Notes under the pieces: model-generated
Seen by the model: the letters and a program-made list of their open reading frames with translations, nothing else
The model's database searches: none
What the model was told of the DNA's origin: nothing
Shown here: piece by piece, positions 8,858 through 22,217 of the stretch
How positions within the stretch are numbered: position 1 is the first letter of the stretch
How the letters are laid out: every line of letters begins with the position of its first letter
Position numbers and translations under genes: made by a program
Source: a virus
DNA: 27,355 nt
Virus record (IMG/VR): IMGVR_UViG_3300036768_001740
Span: 1-27,355 of that record
Reading direction: 5' to 3' (one strand)

Positions 8858-9328
8858 TTAGCCCAAGGTTGCATCTGAACCCTCCGTGAAGTCAGCATAC
8901 CACCGGCGCAGCGTCTCTGCGGCCAGAGTACGGTCGGTGACAGTGATAGTCAGCGACCGTGCGGTCCCGGCCATCATGGCGCCGGAGCCGTCGGTGACAG
9001 CGAGGAATTGCCGGACCAGTCCACGCACGTGCTGGGTGGCGCCTGCCAGCTGATGGTTGACCTGGACAGGTTCACCGAGCGGGGCGGCCTCGATGATGGC
9101 GAGGGCCCGTTCCAGCGCGGCATCGGCGGCAACCATGAACGGACGATACCGGCTGCGGGTCGTCGCGGTGCCGCCATGTACCCGCCACCAATGGATGCCG
9201 CAGAGCCCATCGAACCGGCTGGGGCGGTGATATGAGTCGTGCTCGCAGGGGCGCTCGGGCGGGGCCGGGGGCAGGTCGAGTGACCAGCCCAGCCGCACAT
9301 CCCGGCGACCGACATCAACCCATGCCAC
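8858..9328 (-). CDS. WVDVGRRDVRLG-family zinc-finger-like protein, left-arm copy
   Basis: I take GTG 9328 as the start, giving VAWVDVGRRDVRLG and a 156-residue product; longer open frames run into the preceding gene. After a Pro-rich linker comes a possible metal site: C28, H34, C43 and H46, in the context GLCGIHWWR. The middle is helical (AALERALAIIEAAPLGEPVQVNHQLAGAT) and the end has SLTITVTDRTLAAETLRRW. All three parts recur in the same order in the gene at 17103 on the other strand, so the two are paralogues. The finger resembles the Cys-Cys-GxC-His element of some phage DNA-associated proteins, but no function is known. It lies between the helicase group and the packaging genes. Confidence 0.75.
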   Translation of the reverse strand: MAWVDVGRRDVRLGWSLDLPPAPPERPCEHDSYHRPSRFDGLCGIHWWRVHGGTATTRSRYRPFMVAADAALERALAIIEAAPLGEPVQVNHQLAGATQHVRGLVRQFLAVTDGSGAMMAGTARSLTITVTDRTLAAETLRRWYADFTEGSDATLG

Positions 9329-9332
9329 CCCG

Positions 9333-9584
9333 TTACAGCTCCCGCTCGACATGGCCGTTGATGCGCCACTTGTACGGCCCGCCCGGGGCATCGCAGTACA
9401 GGGCGCCATACACCCGGGGCCGCGGCCAGCCATCCTCGAACATCAGCTCCAGCCACGCCCCTCCAGCGATGACAGTCAGCGCGGCAGCCGGGTCGTCAAT
9501 GGTCGGCGGGTCAACGGCCAGGTCGCCGCCACTAAGGGCCAGGACGGCTTCCATGATGGTCATGCGTCCATCGTCGTCAGGCAC
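9333..9584 (-). CDS. Small unknown protein
   Basis: An 83-residue product starts at GTG 9584 with an AGGAGG site and overlaps the helicase stop by 8 bases (GTGCCTGA). An ATG seven codons in is an alternative start. The sequence is acidic in the middle (GGDLAVDPPTIDDPAAALT) and ends with aromatic residues in a beta-like pattern (LELMFEDGW, VYGALYCDAPGGPYKWRING). The FEDGWPRPRVYG pattern does not match a family I recognise. It is coupled to the SNF2-like gene, so a role alongside the helicase is possible but not shown. Confidence 0.65.
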   Translation of the reverse strand: MPDDDGRMTIMEAVLALSGGDLAVDPPTIDDPAAALTVIAGGAWLELMFEDGWPRPRVYGALYCDAPGGPYKWRINGHVEREL

Positions 9585-10938
9585 AGAACACCTCCTCATG
9601 TCGGCGGGTGATTTCCGCCGCGATCTCCTCGATGATGTCGCCCTTACGCTCGAGCGTCCGGGCGATGCGCTCGTCAACGGTCCCGCGGGCGAGCAACCGG
9701 TAAAACGTCACCGGGCGGGTCTGGCCGGGGCGCACGAGCCGGGCCAGCGCCTGCTCGTAATCGCCGTAGGAGTACGTCAGCGAGTACCAGACGGCGTAGG
9801 CCGCCCGGACGAGCGAGATGCCGACTCCACCGCTCCGGGTTTGGACTGCGAGGATGCGGGGTCCGTCGGGGGCCTGCCATTCGGCCAGCTGGTTGATGCC
9901 GCCCGACAGCTCCGCCGACGTGGTGCCCAGCTCGCGGGCAACCTCATGCACTGTGGCGAGGTCGCGCCTGAACTGGCAGAACACCACCAGCGGCTCGCTC
10001 GGTGGGAGTTCTTCGATCAGCTCGCGCAGCGCCTCGCGTTTCGCGTTGCTGACCTGCACCGGGTTGCCCTCGTCCGATGGCAGCCAGCCGCCTGTTAGCT
10101 GTTGCAACCGGAGGAGCATCGTCAGCACCGACGACACGCTGACCCGCTCGCCCTCGCCGATCGAGGCGACCATCGACGAGGCCAGCTGGTGGTACGCCCG
10201 CAGGGCGCCGGGCTCCAGTTGAACCGGGATGTCGACCACGATCGAGTCGGGGCGTTCCAGATGCGAGACGTCGACCGGGAACGTGACCCGGGAGAGCCGG
10301 GCCTCGAAATCCGACAGATTCCTGTACCCGACGATGTTGCCGAGGCCGAATCGCCCGGCGATGGTGTACCGGGCGAGAAACGCCGTGTAGGCCGGGGGGA
10401 ACACCTCGGGGCGGCAGGCCCGCAGCTGGGCCCAGACATCGTGCGGGCCCTGCGGCATCGGGGTGCCGCTCAGGAGTAACACCGCCTGGGCCTGCCGCCG
10501 CAGCCGGGCCGCGTATCGGCTCGAGCGTGAACTGGGCGATTTAAGCCGCTGGGACTCGTCCCAGATGACTACGTCCCACTCGGTTCGGGCGAGAGTGTCA
10601 CCCAGCGGCGCGCGCCAGACCGCATCGTAGTTGCTCAGGACGATGCCGCCCTGTTGGGCGACCTGCAGGGCCCGGGCGGCGCGTTTGACGATCGGCCCGG
10701 TCCACGCATCGATGACCGGCGGGTGGTCGGGCCACCACCGGCCCAGCTCGCGCTGCCATGCGGGCAGGACTGCCAGCGGGGCGGTAATCAGCGCCCGCTT
10801 CGCCTCGCGCTGGCGCATGTACTCGATGGCGATCCGCGTCTTGCCGCCCCCCATGGCGACATGTAGCAGGCCGCCCGCCTGTTGTTCCGGCGCCGCCAGC
10901 CAGTCGAGGGCGCGGCGCTGGTGGGGCCAGAGATCCAT
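9577..10938 (-). CDS. SNF2-like superfamily 2 helicase/ATPase
   Basis: ATG 10938 follows a strong GAGGAGGTGA site, so this is taken as the start (453 residues). SF2 motifs appear in order: PHQRRALDWL (5-14, Q-like), Walker A MGGGKT (29-34), TAPLAVLPAWQREL (52-65), DESQ (127-130), LSGTPMPQGP (156-165), FCQFRRDL (320-327), RSGGVGISL (368-376) and QALARLVRPGQTRPV (396-410). The final GQ-containing motif is the SNF2 hallmark. Such proteins translocate on double-stranded DNA. In phages they often sit near VRR-NUC nucleases, and here a VRR-NUC gene is divergently transcribed across the shared control region. A role in replication, recombination or overcoming bound proteins is inferred. Confidence 0.93.
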   Translation of the reverse strand: MDLWPHQRRALDWLAAPEQQAGGLLHVAMGGGKTRIAIEYMRQREAKRALITAPLAVLPAWQRELGRWWPDHPPVIDAWTGPIVKRAARALQVAQQGGIVLSNYDAVWRAPLGDTLARTEWDVVIWDESQRLKSPSSRSSRYAARLRRQAQAVLLLSGTPMPQGPHDVWAQLRACRPEVFPPAYTAFLARYTIAGRFGLGNIVGYRNLSDFEARLSRVTFPVDVSHLERPDSIVVDIPVQLEPGALRAYHQLASSMVASIGEGERVSVSSVLTMLLRLQQLTGGWLPSDEGNPVQVSNAKREALRELIEELPPSEPLVVFCQFRRDLATVHEVARELGTTSAELSGGINQLAEWQAPDGPRILAVQTRSGGVGISLVRAAYAVWYSLTYSYGDYEQALARLVRPGQTRPVTFYRLLARGTVDERIARTLERKGDIIEEIAAEITRRHEEVFCA

Positions 10939-10956: not shown

Positions 10957-10985
10957 AGCCTAGCAGGGGCCTCGCCCTCCGTCAA
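10957..10985 (-). promoter_or_regulatory. Possible leftward promoter of the SNF2 operon
   Basis: On the minus strand, TTGACG (10985-10980) and TAGGCT (10962-10957) are separated by 17 bases, matching a sigma70-type promoter at the -35 and moderately at the -10. The start site would fall near 10950, leaving a very short leader before the GAGGAGG site of the helicase gene. The flanking hairpin and repeat array lie just upstream, where a regulator could act. The -10 match is only three of six, so the call is tentative. Confidence 0.35.
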
Positions 10986-10986
10986 A

Positions 10987-11010
10987 CTAGGCCCGTCAGG
11001 GCGGGCCTAG
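10987..11010. promoter_or_regulatory. Perfect inverted repeat CTAGGCCCG-N6-CGGGCCTAG
   Basis: Nine-base arms are separated by TCAGGG. There is no T-run on either strand, so it is not a classical terminator. The right arm runs into the first unit of the adjoining repeat array (TAGTTCGGA at 11008), and the left arm lies next to the putative -35. It may be an operator or a structured element of the control region. Confidence 0.6.
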
Positions 11011-11058
11011 TTCGGATTTAGTTGGGAATAGTCAGGATTTAGTCGGCATTAGTTGGGA
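11008..11058 (+). repeat. Left array of five direct repeats, consensus TAGTTGGGA
   Basis: TAG begins at 11008, 11019, 11029, 11040 and 11050, a spacing of 11, 10, 11 and 10 bases, one turn of the helix. The units are TAGTTCGGA, TAGTTGGGA, TAGTCAGGA, TAGTCGGCA and TAGTTGGGA. The regular phase would place bound proteins on one face of DNA. The stretch is clearly richer in A and T than its surroundings. It could be an operator for cooperative regulators or an iteron-type replication origin. Confidence 0.85.
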
Positions 11059-11097
11059 TTCCGGCCATTTCGGCGCGAGGGGCGAAAATCTCCAGAT

Positions 11098-11146
11098 ACC
11101 CAACTATCCCAACTAATCCCAACTAAATCCTGACTAATCGTGACTA
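11098..11146 (-). repeat. Right array of five repeats, opposite orientation
   Basis: The reverse complements of the units, with CTA at 11104, 11113, 11123, 11134 and 11144 (spacing 9, 10, 11, 10), read TAGTTGGGT, TAGTTGGGA, TAGTTGGGA, TAGTCAGGA and TAGTCACGA on the minus strand. Together with the left array they form a large dyad around a centre of about 39 bases (11059-11097). The array overlaps a GTG at 11140 that would otherwise extend the nuclease frame, which argues for a downstream start of that gene. Confidence 0.85.
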
Positions 11147-11223: not shown

Positions 11224-11667
11224 ATGGCGCTGATGATGGCAGGGGTTGCGCGCCATGTCAACGATGATCTACGCTGGCGGCCGATGCCCAGCGAGAGAGC
11301 CATCCGGCGGGCCATCCACGAGGCGCTGACGGCGCGGGGCGCCGCGCTGATCAGCACGACCGGGGCCTACGGCGGGGCGGGCCTGCCGGACTACGTCGCC
11401 TGTTACCGCGGCCGGTTTCTGGCCATCGAGGTCAAGCGCCCAGGCGGGCAGCCGACTCCGCTGCAGAGTGTCTGGCTGGAGCGCGTCCGGCAGGCCGGGG
11501 GCATCGCAATCGTGGCACGGTCCGCCGACGAGGCGGTCGCAGCAATCCAGTACATCGAGGAGGTCACACATGACGGATATCGGGGAACTGGCAGCCCGGT
11601 TCGAGGCGGTGGTACGCGAGAAACGCCGCCTCGAAACGGAACTCCGGCAGGTCACCCAGCTGGCTGA
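11224..11667 (+). CDS. VRR-NUC domain nuclease
   Basis: The start is taken at ATG 11224 behind AGAGGGG; ATG 11284 is the other candidate, and GTG 11140 is rejected because it lies inside the repeat array. The product has the PD-(D/E)XK core of VRR-NUC proteins: GGAGLPDYVACYRGRFLAIE then VKRPGG, with the catalytic D of LPD, E of IEVK and K of VKR, and the family's trailing QPTPLQSVWLERVRQAGGIAIVARS. These are structure-specific nucleases found stand-alone in phages, usually near helicases. The last 30 or so residues overlap the next gene by 98 bases in another frame and are Gly/Arg/Pro-rich, unlike the domain. They may be non-conserved read-through. Confidence 0.88.
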   Translation: MALMMAGVARHVNDDLRWRPMPSERAIRRAIHEALTARGAALISTTGAYGGAGLPDYVACYRGRFLAIEVKRPGGQPTPLQSVWLERVRQAGGIAIVARSADEAVAAIQYIEEVTHDGYRGTGSPVRGGGTRETPPRNGTPAGHPAG

Positions 11668-11971
11668 CCAGCTGGAGGCCGAGGTCGTGGACGCGATGAG
11701 TTCTGCGGGGCTGCAGAACCTCAGCACCGCGACATCCACCATCTACCTCGCCAACGAGGTCTGGGCGAGGCCCATCGACGAGGTTCAGGACATTCTGGTC
11801 GAGCGTCTGGATGCAGAGGGGCTCGGCGACATCGCCCGCCGTCGCGTTCAGACGCAAACGCTCAGCGCGATCATCCGGTCGCACCTCGACCTGTACGGCG
11901 AACCGCCCGCATGGGCGGAGGGTGTCGTCATCATCACGAACCGGCCAAGGGCGCGGGTGAGGGCGCGCTGA
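11570..11971 (+). CDS. Coiled-coil phage protein of unknown function
   Basis: ATG 11570 has an ideal GAGGAGG site and gives 133 residues. The N-terminal part is a coiled coil (ELAARFEAVVREKRRLETEL and on to LADQLEAEVVDAM). Then follows LSTATSTIYLANEVWARP, and later VQTQTLSAIIRSHLDLYGEPP, two short motifs that recur together in small phage proteins of the replication/recombination block. The C-terminus is Arg-rich. I know no verified function. It lies between the nuclease and the primase group, is preceded by an unusually long overlap, and is followed by a start-stop overlap. Confidence 0.72.
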   Translation: MTDIGELAARFEAVVREKRRLETELRQVTQLADQLEAEVVDAMSSAGLQNLSTATSTIYLANEVWARPIDEVQDILVERLDAEGLGDIARRRVQTQTLSAIIRSHLDLYGEPPAWAEGVVIITNRPRARVRAR

Positions 11972-12048
11972 TGGCCACCATGCTGGTGCAGGCGATCCTC
12001 ATCGCCGCAGTCGTCATCATCGGAATCGACACACTGAGGAGGTTTTAG
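11971..12048 (+). CDS. 25-residue hydrophobic peptide (candidate)
   Basis: A tiny frame starts at the ATG that overlaps the previous stop (TGATG) and ends in TAG two bases before the next ATG. The peptide reads MATMLVQAILIAAVVIIG then IDTLRRF: a single hydrophobic helix with a basic C-terminal end, as in one-pass membrane peptides. The strong AGGAGG site of the next gene lies in its last codons. It fills the gap exactly and has the coupling geometry seen throughout the operon, but at this length chance cannot be excluded. Confidence 0.5.
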   Translation: MATMLVQAILIAAVVIIGIDTLRRF

Positions 12049-12050
12049 CC

Positions 12051-12722
12051 ATGGCAGACATCGAACCCGTCACCCCGCGCCCCATCGCCGCCGCCACCCG
12101 GTACGGCATGGAGGACATCCTCGCCCCGGGCGAACGCCCTGGGCTGGCCGACCTGCCCCGCCTGCGCATCCCCGCGGGCGGCGGCACCACATGGGAGCTG
12201 CCGACCGGCGAGGCGGTTAAGGCTCTCGACGTCATCATCATCCATCGGCAGCTGACCCGCGCGTACTGGGCGACCGCGTTCGACGGCGGCAGCGAGCCGC
12301 CCGCCTGCGCCAGCGACGACGCAGTCACCGGCGTCGGCGACCCGGGCGGCAGCTGCGCCACCTGTCCAAACGCGCAGTTCGGCTCGAGCGGACGCGGACA
12401 GGCCTGCCGACTCATCACCCGGCTGTTCATCGCCCGGGCGCCTGGCCAGTTCCCCATGCTGCTCGCCCTGCCACCGTCGGCCGCGGCGGTCGCCCGGCAG
12501 TACATCGTCAACACCTTGATCGCGACTGGCCTGCCTTACTGGGGGCTCCGGACGACCATCACGCTCAACCGGGTCCAGTCGGCTGGGGGCGTGACGTACA
12601 GCGTTCCGACGTTCTCGGCCGGTAGGGCGCTGGAACCTGACGAGCTGACCGAGGTCGAGGCGATGCGCTCGGCGCTCATCCCCGCACTCTCGACACTGAG
12701 GGCGGGGACCGATGCCGTCTGA
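12051..12722 (+). CDS. Cys-rich phage replication-region protein of unknown function
   Basis: This 223-residue protein contains four cysteines arranged as C86, C102, C105 and C119, in PPACASDDAVTGVGDPGG followed by SCATCPNAQFGSSGRGQACR. This is a likely zinc-binding module. It is a recurring but uncharacterised family of phage proteins found beside primase genes. The motif around YW then CxSxD then CxxCPxxxxGS and GxxC is what I recognise. The rest is an alpha/beta protein with ALPPSAAAVARQYIVNTL near residues 139-156. It has a GAGGAGG site and overlaps the primase start by 11 bases, so a role with the primase or single-stranded DNA is inferred only. Confidence 0.75.
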   Translation: MADIEPVTPRPIAAATRYGMEDILAPGERPGLADLPRLRIPAGGGTTWELPTGEAVKALDVIIIHRQLTRAYWATAFDGGSEPPACASDDAVTGVGDPGGSCATCPNAQFGSSGRGQACRLITRLFIARAPGQFPMLLALPPSAAAVARQYIVNTLIATGLPYWGLRTTITLNRVQSAGGVTYSVPTFSAGRALEPDELTEVEAMRSALIPALSTLRAGTDAV

Positions 12723-14241
12723 GCGACTGGAAGCCGCCCTCAAGTACTTCGATCTGGGCCTGTCGGTCGTCCCAGCCGCGTGGCCCATCATCTCCGAGAC
12801 GGGTGAGGTCCGGTGCTCGTGCGGGCGGATGGCCTGCGCGAGCCCGGGCAAGCACCCGCTCATCCCGTGGGCCGCGTACCAGCGGATGCGGGCGCCCCGC
12901 GAGAAGGTCATCGAGTGGTGGGGGCGGCGCTGGCCGCAGGCAAACATCAGCATCGTCACCGGCGCGGTTTCAGGGCTGGTCGTCATCGACGTCGACCCCG
13001 GCCACGGCGGCGACGAGTCACTGGCCGATTTGGAGCGCGATCTGGGCCCTCTGCCGGACGGCCCGCGGGCAATCACCGGCGGGGGCGGACTGCACTTGCT
13101 CTTCCGGCACCCCGGGGGCGCCGAGATCCAGAGCCGGGCGGGCTGGCGGCCGGGGATTGACATCCGGGCTGACGGCGGGCAGATTATCGCCCCGCCATCA
13201 ACCCATGCCAGCGGCCGCCCGTATGGCTGGGAGGCCGAGCGGGCGGTGTACGAGATCGACATCCCGGCCCTGCCCCCGGCGTACCTCGCCGACATCCGGC
13301 GCCATGCCCCCATCGAGCGGCACGGTGCCGAAGGCATCGAGGGGCTGCTAACTCGTCACTGGCCAGAGGGCGAGCGAAACGGCAACCTGACCCGCGTGGC
13401 GGGCTGGCTGGTAGCAACCCACCGCGATGACCCGTTCGAGGTGCAGGCACGCCTGCACGAGATTAACGAGCGGCTCTGCATGCCTCCCCTGCCCCGGGCT
13501 GAGGTCGAGACGATCCTGAGGTCGATCTGGCGGCGGGACCACGAACAGCGCGAGCTGCGCGAGTTAACCGGCATGGACCCGGTCACTCCGGAGGAGCTGG
13601 ATGAACGCCCAGGCCTGTCCGAGGACGACATCGCCACGCTCACCCCGTCGCAGCGGAGCGAGCTTGTGACCATGGCGTGGACACAGGCGGGCCTGCCGGT
13701 TCCGGTCCGGCGCATCATCGCATACGAGGCGCCGGAGGGGGTCGAGTGGCACATCGCGCTGGAAGACGGCCGCGAGGTTTCCATCGGGGCTGACCTGCTG
13801 TCACAGCTGGCTGTCCGGCGCGCGGTCGCTAACGCGACGGGTTACATCATACCCCAGCGGGACCGGGGCGACTGGGAGGCGTTTGCCGCCCGGCTGCTGA
13901 TCCTCGCCGAGCGCATCGAGGCCCTGCCGCCCGGCGCTGAACAATGGAACAGCTGGGTCGAAATGCTCATCGCCGAGCGCGGCGTTTCGGACGGCGACCT
14001 CGACCTGCCGACCGCAACGGAAGACCTCATGCGGCGCGGCTCGGTTGTCCGGCGGACCGTCGGCGGCAACGCATACCACTGGGTCGCGCTGGGCCGCCTG
14101 CTTGTCTGGCTGGAAGTGCGGCTGGGGCTGCGCATTCACCAGCGGACAGCGGCCACGTGGGCGCGGCAGGCCGGGTGGGAACCGGCCACGTGGAACGACG
14201 CCGAGGGAGCTGGCTGGCGCGTCTGGAGGAAGCGATGCTGA
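12712..14241 (+). CDS. Prim-pol (archaeo-eukaryotic-type) primase
   Basis: This 509-residue protein has an N-terminal AEP prim-pol domain. Visible are a CxC..C..H cluster (C35, C37, C42, H48), VVIDVDPGHGGDE with metal-binding D93 and D95, ITGGGGLHLLFRHP with H128, and GIDIRADGGQIIAPPSTHAS (148-167). A PriCT-like domain follows at about 225-285 (ERNGNLTRVAGWLVATHRDD, then RAEVETILRSIW). The last 200 or so residues show no P-loop, so the helicase usually fused to such primases is absent. The neighbouring UvrD-like helicase may supply it. The domain makes primers and can act as a DNA polymerase. No separate replicative polymerase gene appears in the window. Confidence 0.9.
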   Translation: MPSERLEAALKYFDLGLSVVPAAWPIISETGEVRCSCGRMACASPGKHPLIPWAAYQRMRAPREKVIEWWGRRWPQANISIVTGAVSGLVVIDVDPGHGGDESLADLERDLGPLPDGPRAITGGGGLHLLFRHPGGAEIQSRAGWRPGIDIRADGGQIIAPPSTHASGRPYGWEAERAVYEIDIPALPPAYLADIRRHAPIERHGAEGIEGLLTRHWPEGERNGNLTRVAGWLVATHRDDPFEVQARLHEINERLCMPPLPRAEVETILRSIWRRDHEQRELRELTGMDPVTPEELDERPGLSEDDIATLTPSQRSELVTMAWTQAGLPVPVRRIIAYEAPEGVEWHIALEDGREVSIGADLLSQLAVRRAVANATGYIIPQRDRGDWEAFAARLLILAERIEALPPGAEQWNSWVEMLIAERGVSDGDLDLPTATEDLMRRGSVVRRTVGGNAYHWVALGRLLVWLEVRLGLRIHQRTAATWARQAGWEPATWNDAEGAGWRVWRKRC

Positions 14242-15800
14242 CGCGCGTCATCGGGCCGCCCGGTACTGGGAAAACGTCCTGGGTGCAGTCGTTCGTGGCT
14301 GGCCTGCCCCACCGGTCGCTGTTGCTCGCCTCGCACACACGCACTGCGGCGCGGGTGCTGGCCGCCCGGATCGATGATGTAAATCCGGAAGCGATTGGAA
14401 CCCTGCATAGCCATGCATACCGCGCGCTGGGCCGTCCGTCGGTGGCCGAGGCCGGGAAACTGGCGAGGGAGTGGAACCAGCGCGCGCCCCGGGACGACTG
14501 GCGGATCGGCGCCGAGCGCGACCCTGGAGACCCGCTCGGGACCGAGTCGCGTGAGGGCGAGCTGTTCGCCGAGTTCCAGCGGTGGCGCGAGTCGGCGGCG
14601 CCGGATGCCGACCCGCCGCCGCGGTTCGCGGCGCTCGCGCGGGCATGGGCCGAGTTCAAGGCCGAGCACGAGGCCATCGATTTCGTTGACATGCTGACGC
14701 TGCCGGTTCGCCGGGGACTGCCGCCGCCGCTGCGGCCAGCGGTGCTCATCGTCGACGAGGCGCAAGACCTCACGCCCGCGGGCTGGGCGCTGGTGCGGCA
14801 TTGGGCCCGGTTTGTCGACGAGGTCGTGGTGGCCGGTGACCCGGCCCAGACGATCTACGAGTGGGCCGGGGCCTCCCCGGCCCCGCTGTTTGAGGAAGGC
14901 TGGCACGAGCTGTTACTCGACCGCAGTTACCGCCTACCGGGCGAGGTGCACCGGTTCGCCGAGTCGCTGTTGCTGCAGCACTCGGGCCCGATGTCGCGCG
15001 GCCGGTGGTATCGGCCGCGGCCAGAGGACGGCGAGGTCAGGCGCGCAGGTTTCCGGCTGCGTGAAACCGACAGTGTGATCCGGCTCGTTCAGGAACTGCC
15101 CGGCACGACCATGGTGCTGACGACCTGCGGTTACATGCTGCGCCCGCTGATGGCTGCGCTGCGGGATGCCGGGATGCCGTGGTGGAACCCTTACCGCCGG
15201 GCCGACACCTCTCTCAACCCCCTGCGCGAGGAGGTCGGCGAGGGGCGCATCAGCACGGTGTCGCGGGTGCTGGCGTTTCTGCGCCCTCACCCCGAGGTTT
15301 GGGGCGACGACGCCCGGCTCTGGAGCGGCGAGGACTTCGCGATCTGGCTGCGGATGCTGCGGGCCGACCAGTTCGCGGAGCGCGGCGCGCGTGACCGCCT
15401 GCTAGCAAACCCGCCCGCCCTGAACATCGACATGGTCGCGGACGCGCTGGTTGACGAGGCCCGGGCCGGGATGGCCGACCTGCGGCTCGACTGGCTGGCC
15501 CAGGCGTCGTTACGCGAGTACCGCGGCACCATCGAGTTCATGGCGGCGATCGCCCGGCGCGGCGGGTTCGGCCGCCTGCGTCAACGCCCCCAGCTGATCC
15601 TCGGCACCATCCACAGCGTCAAGGGCGGCGAGGCCGACAACGTGGTCATCTCGCCGGACCTGTCGCTGCAGGGCGCCGAGTCGCTGGCGACCCGGGCCGG
15701 GCAGGATGCCATGATCCGGCTGATGTACACCGGGGTGACCCGGGCGCGCGAGCGGCTGGTGATCCTCGAACCGAGCGGTCGACTCGCATGCGGCCTGTAA
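14235..15800 (+). CDS. UvrD/Rep-like superfamily 1 helicase
   Basis: The start is ATG 14235 with a GGAGG site; the ATG overlaps the primase stop by 7 bases. The 521-residue product has SF1 motifs: GPPGTGKT (7-14), LASHTRTAARVLA (31-43), TLHSHAYRAL (56-65), VDEAQDL (173-179), GDPAQTIYEWAGA (201-213), LDRSYRLP (228-235), TIHSVKGGEADNVVI in the C-terminal third, and YTGVTRARERLVIL near the end. These are the full UvrD-family set, with a shorter insert (2B-like) region than in UvrD. It unwinds or translocates 3' to 5'. It is encoded with the prim-pol, so a replicative or recombination role is likely. Confidence 0.93.
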   Translation: MLTRVIGPPGTGKTSWVQSFVAGLPHRSLLLASHTRTAARVLAARIDDVNPEAIGTLHSHAYRALGRPSVAEAGKLAREWNQRAPRDDWRIGAERDPGDPLGTESREGELFAEFQRWRESAAPDADPPPRFAALARAWAEFKAEHEAIDFVDMLTLPVRRGLPPPLRPAVLIVDEAQDLTPAGWALVRHWARFVDEVVVAGDPAQTIYEWAGASPAPLFEEGWHELLLDRSYRLPGEVHRFAESLLLQHSGPMSRGRWYRPRPEDGEVRRAGFRLRETDSVIRLVQELPGTTMVLTTCGYMLRPLMAALRDAGMPWWNPYRRADTSLNPLREEVGEGRISTVSRVLAFLRPHPEVWGDDARLWSGEDFAIWLRMLRADQFAERGARDRLLANPPALNIDMVADALVDEARAGMADLRLDWLAQASLREYRGTIEFMAAIARRGGFGRLRQRPQLILGTIHSVKGGEADNVVISPDLSLQGAESLATRAGQDAMIRLMYTGVTRARERLVILEPSGRLACGL

Positions 15801-15805
15801 AGAGT

Positions 15806-15831
15806 GATGGGGCGCTTCGCAGCGCCCCATC
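15806..15831 (+). terminator. Strong hairpin after the helicase gene, possible terminator
   Basis: An 11-base perfect stem, GATGGGGCGCT / AGCGCCCCATC, closes a 4-base loop (TCGC). It lies six bases after the helicase stop and is followed by CTCCCTG rather than a T-run. It separates the replication operon from the methyltransferase and could stop or attenuate transcription, or stabilise an mRNA end. Directly after it a GAGGAGG site occurs with no usual start codon in range. Confidence 0.55.
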
Positions 15832-15886
15832 TCCCTGAGGAGGTCCTGACGGCTCAGACCCGAGAACATGATGGCGCACGGAGGGC

Positions 15887-17113
15887 ATGATGGCAAGAGA
15901 CGGCGACGAGAAGGTCGACTGGGACTGGCTGGCAGCCACGTACGCGCTGGGCGGCTGGCGCATCACCGGCGTCCGGGCGACCGGAACGCGTGACCGGCAG
16001 GAGCTGACGCTGACGCTGGAACGGGACGTGTCCGTCGGCATGCCAGCGTTCACTGCCGCAAGCCTGTTTGCAGGCATGGGCGGGTTTTCGCTCGCTTTCG
16101 CGCGGGCAGGTTTCTCGGTGATATGGGCAAACGAACTGGACAGATGGGCTGCGGCGACGCACCGCGTTAATTTCCCCAGCACTCGGCTGATCGAGAAATC
16201 GGTCACTGAGCTTTCAGTAGCTGCCGATGGTCTCGCCCCGGTGGACGTGCTGACAGCCGGGTTCCCGTGCCAGCCCTTTTCGGTCGCCGGAGCTAAGAGA
16301 GGATTCAACGACCAGAGGGGCAGGCTCTTCTTCGAAATCACGAGGATCCTCGCCGAATTCGGCGAGGCGCGGCCGAAGATAGTAATTCTGGAAAATGTCC
16401 CCCACCTGCGTACGCACGATTCCGGCCGGACATTCGCCGAGGTCACGGCGGCGTTGCAGGGCGCCGGTTACTGGTTCGACCCGGGGCGGCATGCCGCTGT
16501 GCTCAATGCAGCCGTGCATGCCGGTATTCCCCAGAATCGTCCCCGGCTTTTCATGGCTGCGGTGAGGTCAGACCTATTCCCGAGAAACGATTTCCGGCTG
16601 CCAGTCGCACGTGTGGCGCTCCGGCCGCTCGATGAGTTCCTCGACACTGCGGAGCCGGTCGACCATTGGCACTACTTTCCTCCCGACTCGAAATGGGTTG
16701 CGCTGTTTGAACAGGCCTCCTCAGCGACCCCCGGCAGCAGGATTTTCCAAATGCGGAGGACTTACGTGAGGGCGATAAAGCGCGACGTAGCCCCAGCCAT
16801 GCTGGCCTCGATGGGCGAGGGCGGGAATAATCATCTGGTTATCCGCGACAGCCGTGGGTATCGGCGGCTGACGGTCGAGGAATGCATGCGTCTCCAGGGC
16901 TTTGATCCAGTCGGTTTTCGGTTCCCGACTGAGGTTTCCCGGAGCCAGCAGTACAAACAGATCGGGAACGCTGTACCGGTGCCGCTGGCGAGAATGCTGG
17001 CAGAGGAAGCCATGAGGATCCTCGCGCCGTCACAGCGGCTGGACATCATCCCAGCCGACTGGGAGGGATTCGAGGACGAGCTGGCAGTGTGGAGGGGCCG
17101 CCATGTGGGTTGA
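15887..17113 (+). CDS. Orphan C5-cytosine DNA methyltransferase
   Basis: The 408-residue protein has nearly all C5 methyltransferase motifs: I ASLFAGMGGFSLAF (58-71), IV AGFPCQPFSVAG (124-135, catalytic C128), VI ILENV (167-171), VIII QNRPR (216-220), IX RRLTVEECMRLQGF (326-339) and X QYKQIGNAVPVPLA (355-368). The target-recognition part between VIII and IX is about 100 residues. A 50-residue N-terminal extension precedes motif I. The GGAGG site sits 2 bases from ATG 15887 and 5 from ATG 15890, so either may be used. No restriction enzyme is adjacent, so a protective or regulatory role is likely. The gene is visibly less GC-rich than its neighbours, suggesting recent acquisition. Confidence 0.94.
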   Translation: MMARDGDEKVDWDWLAATYALGGWRITGVRATGTRDRQELTLTLERDVSVGMPAFTAASLFAGMGGFSLAFARAGFSVIWANELDRWAAATHRVNFPSTRLIEKSVTELSVAADGLAPVDVLTAGFPCQPFSVAGAKRGFNDQRGRLFFEITRILAEFGEARPKIVILENVPHLRTHDSGRTFAEVTAALQGAGYWFDPGRHAAVLNAAVHAGIPQNRPRLFMAAVRSDLFPRNDFRLPVARVALRPLDEFLDTAEPVDHWHYFPPDSKWVALFEQASSATPGSRIFQMRRTYVRAIKRDVAPAMLASMGEGGNNHLVIRDSRGYRRLTVEECMRLQGFDPVGFRFPTEVSRSQQYKQIGNAVPVPLARMLAEEAMRILAPSQRLDIIPADWEGFEDELAVWRGRHVG

Positions 17114-17639
17114 TGTTGGTCGCCGGGACGTTCGACTGGGCGACAGCTGGCACGACATGGCGCCGGAACCGCCTGGGCCAGTTCAACCCTGCCGGGCCAG
17201 CGGGTGCGATGCGCCGGGAGCCCACGAGGGGCTCTGCGGGCCGCACTTCTGGCGGGATACCGCATACGAGCGGCAGCGAGTTGAACTCCCCGCCACTGCG
17301 CCGCCGATGCCGACTGCCATCCCGCCGCAGTATGCCCGTCTGGCCGAGGCGTACGTGCTGGCCGCCGATTTGCTGGCCCGCCTGCCGGAGCGGCGCTGGG
17401 TGTTGTTGAACCGCGAGCTGGACGTGTCTGCCCCGGTGCTCCGGCGCGTCCGTACCATCGTCTCGATCGCGGCCGGGCTGCCGGACTCCGGGCTCGGGCT
17501 GCAAACCGATGGGCAGTACAGGGTCATGGTGTCCGACCGGGACGCCGCTGTCCGGGCCCTCGAACAGGCCGCTCTGAACACGCATTACTGGCGGCAGGCG
17601 CTGGCCCATTTACACGCGGCAGAATCTGCCATACGATAG
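17103..17639 (+). CDS. WVDVGRRDVRLG-family zinc-finger-like protein, right-arm copy
   Basis: The ATG overlaps the methyltransferase stop by 11 bases and gives 178 residues. It opens MWVDVGRRDVRLG, the same run as the minus-strand gene at 8858, and has C30, C35, C45 and H48 in the context GLCGPHFWR, a Cys-Cys-Cys-His set. The helical middle (YVLAADLLARLPERRWVLLN) and the end (YRVMVSDRDAAVRALEQAAL) also match in order. A zinc finger that binds nucleic acid is a reasonable guess. The downstream promoter and palindrome overlap its last codons (17609-17637). Confidence 0.78.
   Translation: MWVDVGRRDVRLGDSWHDMAPEPPGPVQPCRASGCDAPGAHEGLCGPHFWRDTAYERQRVELPATAPPMPTAIPPQYARLAEAYVLAADLLARLPERRWVLLNRELDVSAPVLRRVRTIVSIAAGLPDSGLGLQTDGQYRVMVSDRDAAVRALEQAALNTHYWRQALAHLHAAESAIR
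17609..17637 (+). promoter_or_regulatory. Promoter with palindromic operator upstream of the XRE operon
   Basis: TTTACA (17609-17614) and TACGAT (17632-17637) have a 17-base spacer, five and four matches to the sigma70 boxes. The spacer contains the palindrome GGCAGAATCTGCC (17618-17630), arms GGCAGA and TCTGCC around one A. A protein bound there would block polymerase. Transcription would start near 17644, about 20 bases before the ATG at 17665. The whole element lies in the 3' end of the preceding gene. Confidence 0.7.
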
Positions 17640-17664
17640 GGACAGAACATCGAGGAGGTCCACC

Positions 17665-17982
17665 ATGGAATGGTCAATCAGCCAAGCTGCCATCGGTGCG
17701 GCGACGCGTGCGGCGCTGCCGCTGTTGTGCTCTCCGCTCGACTCAGCCGAACTGCGGCGCAGAGCCGACGGGGCGCTGGCCGAGGCGCTGGGTATGCTGG
17801 CGGCAGAGCTAGATGCGTACCCAGTGCATGGGCTGCCGCCGCGCTCTGTCGCAGCCCGGCGCCAGATAGGACGACGGCTGCTTTACATCGCGGCTGTTTC
17901 GTCCGACGAGACCAAGAGCCCGGCTGCGCGATACATGGAAATCGCCCAGGCGTTCGGGCAGATTCGGGGGTTGCTGTTGTGA
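17665..17982 (+). CDS. Unknown helical protein, first gene of the XRE operon
   Basis: A 105-residue, mostly helical protein starts behind GAGGAGGTCCACC. It has ELRRRADGALAEALGMLAAELDA (about 29-51) followed by SVAARRQIGRRLLYIAAVSS, suggesting a compact alpha bundle. I recognise no domain. It ends with a GTGA overlap on the XRE gene, so the two are co-translated from the palindrome-bearing promoter. A partner or target of the regulator (including a toxin-like role) is conceivable but nothing in the sequence shows it. Confidence 0.7.
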   Translation: MEWSISQAAIGAATRAALPLLCSPLDSAELRRRADGALAEALGMLAAELDAYPVHGLPPRSVAARRQIGRRLLYIAAVSSDETKSPAARYMEIAQAFGQIRGLLL

Positions 17983-18161
17983 CTCCCGAGGAGGTCCGTG
18001 AGTATAGGGCCCGTTATGGCCTGTCCCAACCAGAGCTGGCCCGGCTTCTTGGGCTGGCCGAACGCACCGTCCGGGCATGGGAGCGGGGAGAGTGGCCTGT
18101 CCCGCAGGTCGCCGTCCTCGCCATGCGTGAACTGGCGCGCGGGCTGAAGGTAAAGATTTAA
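17979..18161 (+). CDS. Small XRE-type helix-turn-helix regulator
   Basis: A 60-residue protein from a GTG overlapping the previous stop (GTGA) is almost entirely one Cro/C1-type domain. It reads VTPEEVREYRARYGLSQPEL then ARLLGLAERTVRAWERGE. The LSQPELARLLGLAERTVRAWE core is the classic HTH: a Q at the start of helix 2 and a W-E in the recognition helix region. No oligomerisation or protease-sensitive domain follows, so it is Cro-like or antitoxin-like rather than a lambda-CI-type repressor. The identical palindrome in the promoters at 17609 and 18170, one on each side of its operon, is the obvious candidate target, giving autoregulation plus control of the next gene. Confidence 0.88.
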   Translation: MTPEEVREYRARYGLSQPELARLLGLAERTVRAWERGEWPVPQVAVLAMRELARGLKVKI

Positions 18162-18169
18162 ACTGGCAG

Positions 18170-18201
18170 TTGACATCACCGGCAGAATCTGCCACTATTG
18201 T
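18170..18201 (+). promoter_or_regulatory. Second palindrome-bearing promoter
   Basis: A perfect -35, TTGACA (18170-18175), is followed by GGCAGAATCTGCC (18181-18193), base-for-base the palindrome found at 17618. The -10 is either CACTAT at 17-base spacing (18193-18198, weak) or TATTGT at 20-base spacing (18196-18201). It would serve the gene at 18250. The palindrome sits between the boxes as in the first promoter, so both are likely under one regulator. Confidence 0.65.
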
Positions 18202-18207
18202 GACTGC

Positions 18208-18223
18208 CCCCGCCGGAGCGGGG
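18208..18223 (+). promoter_or_regulatory. Leader hairpin before the gene at 18250
   Basis: CCCCGC and GCGGGG flank CGGA in the presumed 5' leader, followed by GAGGAGGG. There is no T-run. The GGGG arm could instead pair with the CCCCC at 18231-18235 just before the ribosome-binding site, so two alternative folds are possible. Regulation of translation is only a suggestion. Confidence 0.35.
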
Positions 18224-18249
18224 AGCCTAACCCCCGAGGAGGGACTCCG

Positions 18250-18612
18250 ATGGCAACCCCCACTACCGCAGCCGAGACCGCAAGCGCGCTCAACTGGGCG
18301 CGCACGGCCTGGGCCCTCACCACCGAAGGCCCGGATGGCATCCGGGTCGAACTGGCCGCCGATGGTGGCCACAAGGCCATCGTCTCGCTCGCCCCGGAGG
18401 GCGGGATGGCCATCCTGACCGATGGCTACAACCTCGGCGCTCGCATGCTGGCCGCTGACTGGGCGGCCGCGGTGTATGCCCTGCGGGCAGCACTCGCCCG
18501 CCGTGCAATCCCAGCGATGCGGGGCAAGCACATCATCGCCCTCTGGGAGGGCGACAAAATCACCGCCTCTGTGGTGGTGACGCTCTCCCGGCTCGGCGAT
18601 GGTGCGGCCTAA
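18250..18612 (+). CDS. Unknown 120-residue protein under the palindrome promoter
   Basis: The start follows CCCGAGGAGGGACTCCG. The protein has three beta-like stretches (GIRVELAADG, HKAIVSLAPEGGMAILTDGY, and KITASVVVTLSRLG) with a long Ala-rich helix between the second and third (ADWAAAVYALRAALARR). There is no signal peptide or membrane segment. I do not recognise the family. It is the first gene after the XRE operon and carries its own copy of the candidate operator, so it is likely co-regulated with that operon. Confidence 0.68.
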   Translation: MATPTTAAETASALNWARTAWALTTEGPDGIRVELAADGGHKAIVSLAPEGGMAILTDGYNLGARMLAADWAAAVYALRAALARRAIPAMRGKHIIALWEGDKITASVVVTLSRLGDGAA

Positions 18613-18671
18613 ATCTGGGTCGAGTTCGGCGCCGATGGCGCAGTCGGTCGTGGTCGGTTTGAAATCTGCTA

Positions 18672-18692
18672 CGGGGATGCTTGACATCCCCG
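18672..18692 (+). promoter_or_regulatory. Hairpin in the 99-base gap before the membrane-protein gene
   Basis: CGGGGATG and CATCCCCG form an 8-base perfect stem around CTTGA, ending about 20 bases before the ATG at 18712 and just upstream of its GGAGG site. The gap between 18613 and 18711 holds no gene that I can see. A half-match to the upstream palindrome (AATCTGC, 18663-18669) lies in front of the hairpin, but no convincing -35 and -10 pair accompanies it. Confidence 0.45.
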
Positions 18693-18711
18693 GCAAATCA
18701 GGAGGTGTCAC

Positions 18712-19200
18712 ATGTCGGATAAACCAACGCACACATGGAACCCGGAGACGGTCAGCTTCATGTGGGAGCTGTTCCGCGACTGGCCCAGCCGCCAGCTGGA
18801 GGGGTGGGCCGCCATCGAAGCGAAAGCCAACCAAATCTTCGGTGTTGGCGGTGTCGTTTTTGGTCTGACTGCCCTCGCGCTGCCGAGCCAGGGCTGGGCC
18901 GCCTGGCTGCTGGTACCTGCGCTTCTCTGCTTCGTCGTCCTTTCGTACGCGGCGGTGCTGGTGAACTGGCCCCGGCAGTTTGTGAACCCGTTCGGTCCGA
19001 AGACGCTGCTCGACGAACACTTCGACACCGAGCTTTCGGAGCTACGCTACGCGCTGCTCTGCTCTCTGGCAGACAACGCAGACCTGCAGAACGCGACGAT
19101 TCAGGAGGAGAAGGGGCGGTGGCTGCGGGTTGCCATCGCTGCATTCTTCGGCGAAGTGCTCTTCACCACTCTCTGGGTGGCTACAGCTGCTTTGTCGTAG
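18712..19200 (+). CDS. Three-helix membrane protein, possible exclusion or effector protein
   Basis: The 162-residue product starts behind AGGAGG. A polar N-terminus (about 40 residues, rich in Trp) contains EAKANQIFGVGG at the start of the first membrane segment (about 42-57). The second segment is about 64-84 (AWLLVPALLCFVVLSYAAVLV), then a cytosol-type stretch with DEHFDTELSELRYALLCSL and NATIQEEKGRWL, and a third segment at about 139-160. The order D/E-x-KA before helix 1, a middle soluble stretch, then an N..K segment before the last helix resembles membrane effectors of cyclic-nucleotide defence systems (PycTM/SLATT-type). The likeness is by eye only. A host-takeover, superinfection-exclusion or lysis role is equally possible. 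It converges with, and overlaps, the lysis gene. Confidence 0.75.
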   Translation: MSDKPTHTWNPETVSFMWELFRDWPSRQLEGWAAIEAKANQIFGVGGVVFGLTALALPSQGWAAWLLVPALLCFVVLSYAAVLVNWPRQFVNPFGPKTLLDEHFDTELSELRYALLCSLADNADLQNATIQEEKGRWLRVAIAAFFGEVLFTTLWVATAALS

Positions 19201-21880: not shown

Positions 21881-22217
21881 TGGAACGCGCCTCCATCTGC
21901 CCGAGGATGGCCATCTGTTGCCGCTGGAGGTCAAGCAGCTCGCGCTGGGCCCGCACCAGCTCGGCCTGCTGCTGCGACACGCGCTCCAGCTGGTCACCGA
22001 TCGCCCGCATCCGCTCGGAGGTCTGCTGGGTCAGCTGCAGCAGCATCTGGCTGAGCTGGCCGTAGGCGTTGAACACCGTCTGCGCATCGGCAGTGGTCAC
22101 AGTGCCGCTCTCGCGGCGGCGCTGCGTGCGCGCCTGCAGCCATGCCGTCGCCAGCGTCACCAGCGCGCCGGTGAGCGCAGAGACGAGGCCGACGAGAGCG
22201 GTCAGCTGGAGCGACAT
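21870..22217 (-). CDS. Membrane-anchored coiled-coil protein
   Basis: This 115-residue product has one N-terminal membrane segment (LQLTALVGLVSALTGALVTLA, about 3-23), a basic stretch (QARTQRRRES) and then a long heptad-like coiled coil rich in Gln (LSQMLLQLTQQTSERM, QLERVSQQQAEL, LLDLQRQQMAIL). With the endolysin just upstream, an i-spanin-like or other lysis accessory role is possible, and so is a tail-assembly role. The start is ATG 22217, with GGGGAGG nine bases upstream. Confidence 0.7.
   Translation of the reverse strand: MSLQLTALVGLVSALTGALVTLATAWLQARTQRRRESGTVTTADAQTVFNAYGQLSQMLLQLTQQTSERMRAIGDQLERVSQQQAELVRAQRELLDLQRQQMAILGQMEARSNGH

Follow-up and report, generated by a model that had tools for sequence, protein, structure and literature searches.

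In phage 186, Apl binds as monomers to five to seven short direct repeats with a spacing of 10-11 bp, located at attP and between the early promoters. Its binding to single sites is weak, the cooperativity between neighbors is strong, and the early promoters are repressed (PMC7498355). Filaments similar to those of Apl have been described for RdfS, P2 Cox and BldC (PMC11963761). In plasmid pLS20, the HTH protein RcoLS20 recognizes an 8-bp motif in two operators at divergent promoters, OI, where the lower strand carries it, and OII, where most copies are on the upper strand; binding is cooperative, with looping over a short spacer (PMC4207663). In the lactococcal Ceduovirus (c2) phages, the replication origin is found in the non-coding region between the divergent early and late gene blocks (PMC7150918).

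We have studied an array of short repeats in a 27.4-kb virus record, the whole of which is hereafter called the window. Direct reading of positions 11008-11146 confirmed the array as a real feature. It holds ten copies of a TAGTYRGSA-like sequence (Y = C/T, R = A/G, S = C/G), of which the first five are on the plus strand and the remaining five on the minus strand (Table 1). Most likely, it is a cooperative control switch whose general type is known but whose arrangement is unusual, and it possibly serves also as a replication start. To our knowledge, there are few descriptions of control regions for phages from this part of the tree.

Layout and conservation of the array

The forward 9-mers are TAGTTCGGA (starting at 11008), TAGTTGGGA (11019), TAGTCAGGA (11029), TAGTCGGCA (11040) and again TAGTTGGGA (11050), with steps of 11, 10, 11 and 10 bp. 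The minus-strand copies end at 11106, 11115, 11125, 11136 and 11146, with steps of 9, 10, 11 and 10 bp. The unit spacing is thus 9-11 bp, with a mean of 10.25 bp, which corresponds to the one-helical-turn repeat of the Apl/Xis/Cox-type operators. The two arms form a near-perfect mirror about base 11077, the sum of forward start and reverse end being 22154-22156 for every pair, and their inner TAGT cores are 53 bp (5.05 turns) apart. By arithmetic, all ten TAGT centers fit a 10.5-bp periodicity with deviations of +0.5 to -1.5 bp, which places the ten units on one face of the helix. A preliminary description of this DNA had reported five units facing five across a center of about 39 bases, which we could verify, and a spacing of 10-11 bases, which failed for the single step of 9. 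Its proposal of helical phasing agreed with our data, the ten TAGT cores lying within ~2 bp of one face.

Table 1. Coordinates in the window of the array units and of neighboring genes, promoter-like sequences and candidate binding proteins.
Feature	Position	Strand	Sequence or description	In the relative
Cysteine-rich protein, candidate binder	8858..9433	-	Leftward unit; paralogue of 17103-17639	
SNF2-type helicase	9577..10938	-	First leftward gene (annotation)	
Predicted leftward sigma70-like promoter	10957..10985	-	TTGACG-N17-TAGGCT, TG before -10; consensus match	TTGACA-N17-TAGTCT; TG also present
GC-rich hairpin	10985..11012		AACTAGGCCCG-TCAGGG-CGGGCCTAGTT; overlaps forward unit 1, lies beside leftward promoter	Stem retained, loop altered
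Forward unit 1	11008..11018	+	TAGTTCGGATT	TAGTCAGGATT
Forward unit 2	11019..11028	+	TAGTTGGGAA	TAGTTGGGGT
Forward unit 3	11029..11039	+	TAGTCAGGATT	Same
Forward unit 4	11040..11049	+	TAGTCGGCAT	Same
Forward unit 5	11050..11060	+	TAGTTGGGATT	Same
Center between inner 9-mers	11059..11097		39 bp	59% identity, equal length
Reverse unit 1	11096..11106	-	TAGTTGGGTAT on minus strand	TAGTTGGCTAT
Reverse unit 2	11106..11115	-	TAGTTGGGAT on minus strand; base 11106 common with reverse unit 1	Same
Reverse unit 3	11115..11125	-	TAGTTGGGATT on minus strand	Same
Reverse unit 4	11126..11136	-	TAGTCAGGATT on minus strand	TAGTTGCGATT
Reverse unit 5	11136..11146	-	TAGTCACGATT on minus strand	TAGTCGCGATT
VRR-NUC nuclease	11224..11667	+	First rightward gene (annotation); start codon and Shine-Dalgarno-like sequence by eye	
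Possible second leftward promoter	11233..11261	-	TTGACA-N17-CATCAT, inside VRR-NUC gene start	Retained
Cysteine-rich protein, candidate binder	17103..17639	+	Rightward unit; predicted winged-helix-like C-terminal domain	
XRE-type HTH protein, candidate binder	17979..18161	+	About 60-62 aa, GTG start; near end of rightward unit	

The seven exact matches to TAGTYRGSA in the window all fall within the array. When one mismatch was allowed, 33 matches were obtained (15.0 ± 4.0 in shuffles), ten of which are located in the 139-bp array. A one-arm phased-chain statistic was not significant (observed value of 3, reached in 7 of 60 shuffles), and a two-arm count of near-copies, independent of the motif, was used in its place. 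This count was 7 in a 260-bp segment and did not exceed 5 in any of 500 dinucleotide shuffles of that segment. It also reached 8 for a coding repeat in a Gly-rich tail gene and 7 in one of 12 whole-window shuffles, so that the near-copy count alone is no proof of function. We consider the conservation of the layout in a relative to be the stronger evidence.

The only relative found that spans the array locus, IMGVR_UViG_3300028735_000025 (~90% DNA identity), has all ten units at unchanged spacings and a spacer of identical length. The TAGT core is identical in all units of the two genomes (20/20 units, 40/40 bases). Identity was 82/90 (91%) over the unit 9-mers, 52/67 over the left flank and 23/39 over the center, with the coding blocks being 86-91% identical (blastn). 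The changes within units stay mostly near the consensus, and unit 1 shifts toward it (TAGTTCGGA to TAGTCAGGA). When units were paired with their mirror partners, the score was below the permutation mean, with 108 of 120 permutations being at least as good. The variants thus follow the consensus and not the mirror partner, which fits independent binding sites. A spacer of fixed length and free sequence fits bridging or phasing. Loss of the array or of its phasing in close relatives had been put forward as a sign of chance or of a non-functional remnant; the one relative carries the array with the same phasing. The depth of this conservation is shallow, since the array is carried by two closely related genomes only.

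Searches of phage and plasmid records returned no DNA similarity to the array region. Array-pattern scans of IMG/VR viral contigs retrieved the known relative only, plus tandem repeats in unrelated phages, and a mirrored control pattern was found in 17 stretches vs. 13 for the real one. As the control was as frequent as the array pattern, we claim no wider family. Terminase relatives at 36-52% identity (L011-L015, L057-L059 and others) showed no such array where their flanks reach; the neighboring genes of L012 and L014 differ from those of the window, and more distant relatives cover the terminase and not the array region, or have other gene orders. Six whole metagenome-assembled genomes holding terminase relatives, mostly Chloroflexota, gave no array match. 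The nearest cellular relatives of the terminase come from Chloroflexota and related metagenome genomes (52% at best), and from the terminase relatives alone the host would be Chloroflexota-related. In an unrelated phage contig (L007:566-610), a tandem array of the 11-bp TAGTCAGGGAA lies directly downstream of a tyrosine integrase gene and is possibly an attachment-site arm array.

Transcription units, promoters and candidate binding proteins

The annotated rightward genes all lie within 11224-19200 and comprise VRR-NUC, DUF7307, a PHROG 23155 protein, Prim-Pol, a UvrD-like helicase, a C5 methylase, a cysteine-rich protein and the HTH protein. Leftward, the annotation comprises SNF2, the cysteine-rich paralogue, HNH, the terminase and the genes for structural and tail proteins, an M23 peptidase among them. 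These genes extend from 10938 down to position 1, continue via a 4.3-kb tape-measure segment present in the relative, and then run from 27355 to about 19200. This segment bridges the window ends 1 and 27355 in the relative and carries a 1210-residue tape-measure-like gene in leftward sense. It follows from this joining that the map is circular or permuted, with the array as the sole point at which the two units diverge. The window is therefore a nearly complete genome, permuted or circular. The initial placement of the array, between the SNF2-like helicase and the VRR-NUC/primase operons, thus coincides with the only divergent junction.

Two insertions were observed along the way. A C5 cytosine methylase domain lies in frame within the gene at 15887-17113, flanked by gene parts 15887-16045 and 17003-17110; in the relative, the corresponding ORF of 80 aa is intact (L083:2930-3169), and L012 has an insert-free homologue. 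The cysteine-rich gene of the relative is separated from HNH by an insert of 2.8 kb (L083:10206-12995), absent from the window, in which ParB-nuclease-like and PAPS-reductase-like proteins were recognized by eye.

The leftward unit is preceded by a conserved promoter-like sequence (10985-10957) that lies ~19 bases upstream of the start codon of SNF2; the interval contains a good Shine-Dalgarno-like sequence. The array lies upstream of this predicted promoter, at about -58 to -196, and not over it. Simple steric repression would therefore need spreading, or the array would be an activator site. An extra inverted TAGT is found in the left half of the adjacent hairpin, beside the -35 box. The second candidate promoter (11261-11233) would transcribe leftward through the array; its conservation means little, as it lies in coding sequence. 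No rightward promoter recognizable in both the window and the relative was found, suggestive of an activator-dependent or non-standard rightward promoter. Directly after the HTH gene, at 18170-18198, there is a promoter-like TTGACA-N17-CACTAT with TG (CAGTAT in the relative).

Regarding the candidate binders, the two cysteine-rich paralogues share the motif WVDVGRRDVRL. The C-terminal domain of the modeled cysteine-rich protein had pLDDT values mostly of 81-92; the best VIA Z was 6.4, with none above it, and no Foldseek match was obtained at E < 0.001, which makes its winged-helix reading tentative. The predicted C-terminal structure of Prim-Pol had a pLDDT of 50. In the window and the relative, both of which may be incomplete records, we found no match to tyrosine integrase (PF00589) and none over cut-off to the excisionase-type HTH_17 (PF12728), for which a sub-threshold match occurred inside the XRE protein only. 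Ribbon-helix-helix proteins (PF01402) had no match in either genome, and no initiator-type gene or family for replication was recognized.

Probable operator function and rival explanations

On balance, we lean toward the array being a cooperative operator, situated in the one region that controls the phage genes in both directions. The cooperative operator already suggested as one reading of this locus is compatible with our data, the one-face phasing and the layout being kept in the relative. With one site per turn and all sites on one face, the binding protein is expected to line up as adjacent protomers, and the opposed orientation of the two groups suggests that their filaments meet or bridge. 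The binding protein, its cooperativity, the bridging and the sign of regulation are inferred. The TAGTYRGSA sites would be occupied, with one protomer per helical turn in each arm, by a small DNA-binding protein that the phage itself probably encodes. Both groups of five protomers would then lie on one side of the DNA and face each other over a spacer of ~3.7 turns, which they would probably bridge or bend. Occupancy would set the relative activity of the two units, the rightward one for replication (VRR-NUC, Prim-Pol, helicase) and the leftward SNF2-terminase-structural one. Less in keeping with an operator are the position of the array upstream of the recognized leftward promoter, the lack of a rightward promoter recognizable in both genomes and the shallow conservation. 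If the operator reading is true, all genes of the roughly 32-kb phage are governed by one 139-bp element, whose regular site layout would lend itself to quantitative tests of cooperativity and bridging. The array would then be a compact, testable control hub; it is also a defined candidate origin.

A replication origin is a serious rival, since the Ceduovirus origin lies at a comparable junction and the array is AT-rich; we nevertheless hold it to be unlikely. An initiator, possibly Prim-Pol or an unrecognized protein, would load on both arms and open the DNA, and the site may double as an operator. The array is indeed richer in AT than any other 139 bp of the contig (46% vs. 69% GC), it adjoins the replication unit, and the permuted contigs give a circular map. 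However, AT-richness is also found in promoter regions, and the center between the arms is GC-rich (66%), leaving no obvious unwinding element there. An iteron origin had been the other reading suggested initially; typical iterons are 17-22 bp, unlike the 10.5-bp spacing observed here, and no initiator family was recognized. GC skew, proposed earlier as a check for an origin, changed sign with gene strand and did not mark a replichore. It was negative in 1-5.5 kb and in 19.2-27.4 kb, and the latter range is partly within the would-be rightward replichore, so that an origin gets no support from skew. A combined reading, in which the mirrored array is a dual-purpose hub where one bridging complex would fire replication and divide the circular genome into two opposed units, seems to us decidedly improbable.

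The arms could also act as RNA or single-stranded DNA, by folding into a long hairpin in a leader transcript, which we judge very unlikely. The fold energies were at z about -8 on both strands, the promoter-like sequence 11261-11233 would provide a leftward transcript of the array, and 28 of 32 stem pairs are the same in the relative. Such folding is, however, expected of any inverted array. Comparison of the two sequences gave no compensating pairs in the arm stem, two one-sided changes and two broken pairs, and mirror partners did not match preferentially; these two observations make the hairpin less likely as the functional form. No Rfam family exceeded threshold, and the microRNA matches, far below it, reflect the inverted arms.

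There is little to commend packaging recognition (pac/cos) as the role of the array. SNF2 is indeed followed by HNH and terminase genes of the same orientation, but pac/cos sites are usually in or beside the small terminase gene, ~2.6 kb from the array, which lies within a promoter region. It is most improbable that the array is an attachment-site arm array for excisionase and integrase, since neither genome gave a tyrosine integrase or an HTH_17 match over cut-off, even though excisionases bind direct repeats one turn apart. The same holds for a centromere-like partition site of a plasmid prophage, as in R1 parC, where ten direct repeats flank a promoter (title of a reference cited in PMC9426499): the repeats here are opposed, the annotated genes include no ParA, ParM or tubulin-like gene, and neither genome has a ribbon-helix-helix match that could stand for the adjacent ParR of ParMRC systems.

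Comparison with known systems

The cooperative operator that we favor resembles those of Apl in having short units repeated at about one turn. It differs from the Apl/Xis/Cox type in orientation, the Apl sites being one-directional between the convergent pR and pL, whereas here two opposed groups of five lie at divergent units. Neither an integrase nor a recognized Apl-like gene or winged-HTH excisionase-like protein was found in the two possibly incomplete records.

As in Ceduovirus, the array occupies a non-coding region between divergent gene blocks; the sequence and the phage group are different, and the origin role is here that of a candidate only. R1 parC also has ten repeats of roughly 11 bp, which flank a promoter. 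Unlike here, the parC repeats are direct and accompanied by parM and parR genes, neither of which was found here.

In pLS20, as here, a single motif forms two opposed arrays at divergent transcription units. The arrays of that type are bridged by a tetrameric HTH regulator, for which the XRE-type HTH gene of the window would be a candidate counterpart. The earlier statement that the mirrored 5+5 arrangement matches no named element was thus too strong, the pLS20 arrays being opposed but less regular (PMC4207663). They comprise four and seven motifs, with one motif reversed and one overlapping a promoter core, and are separated by a 75-bp spacer (PMC4207663), whereas the array described here has five units on each side, almost perfectly mirrored across 39 bp.
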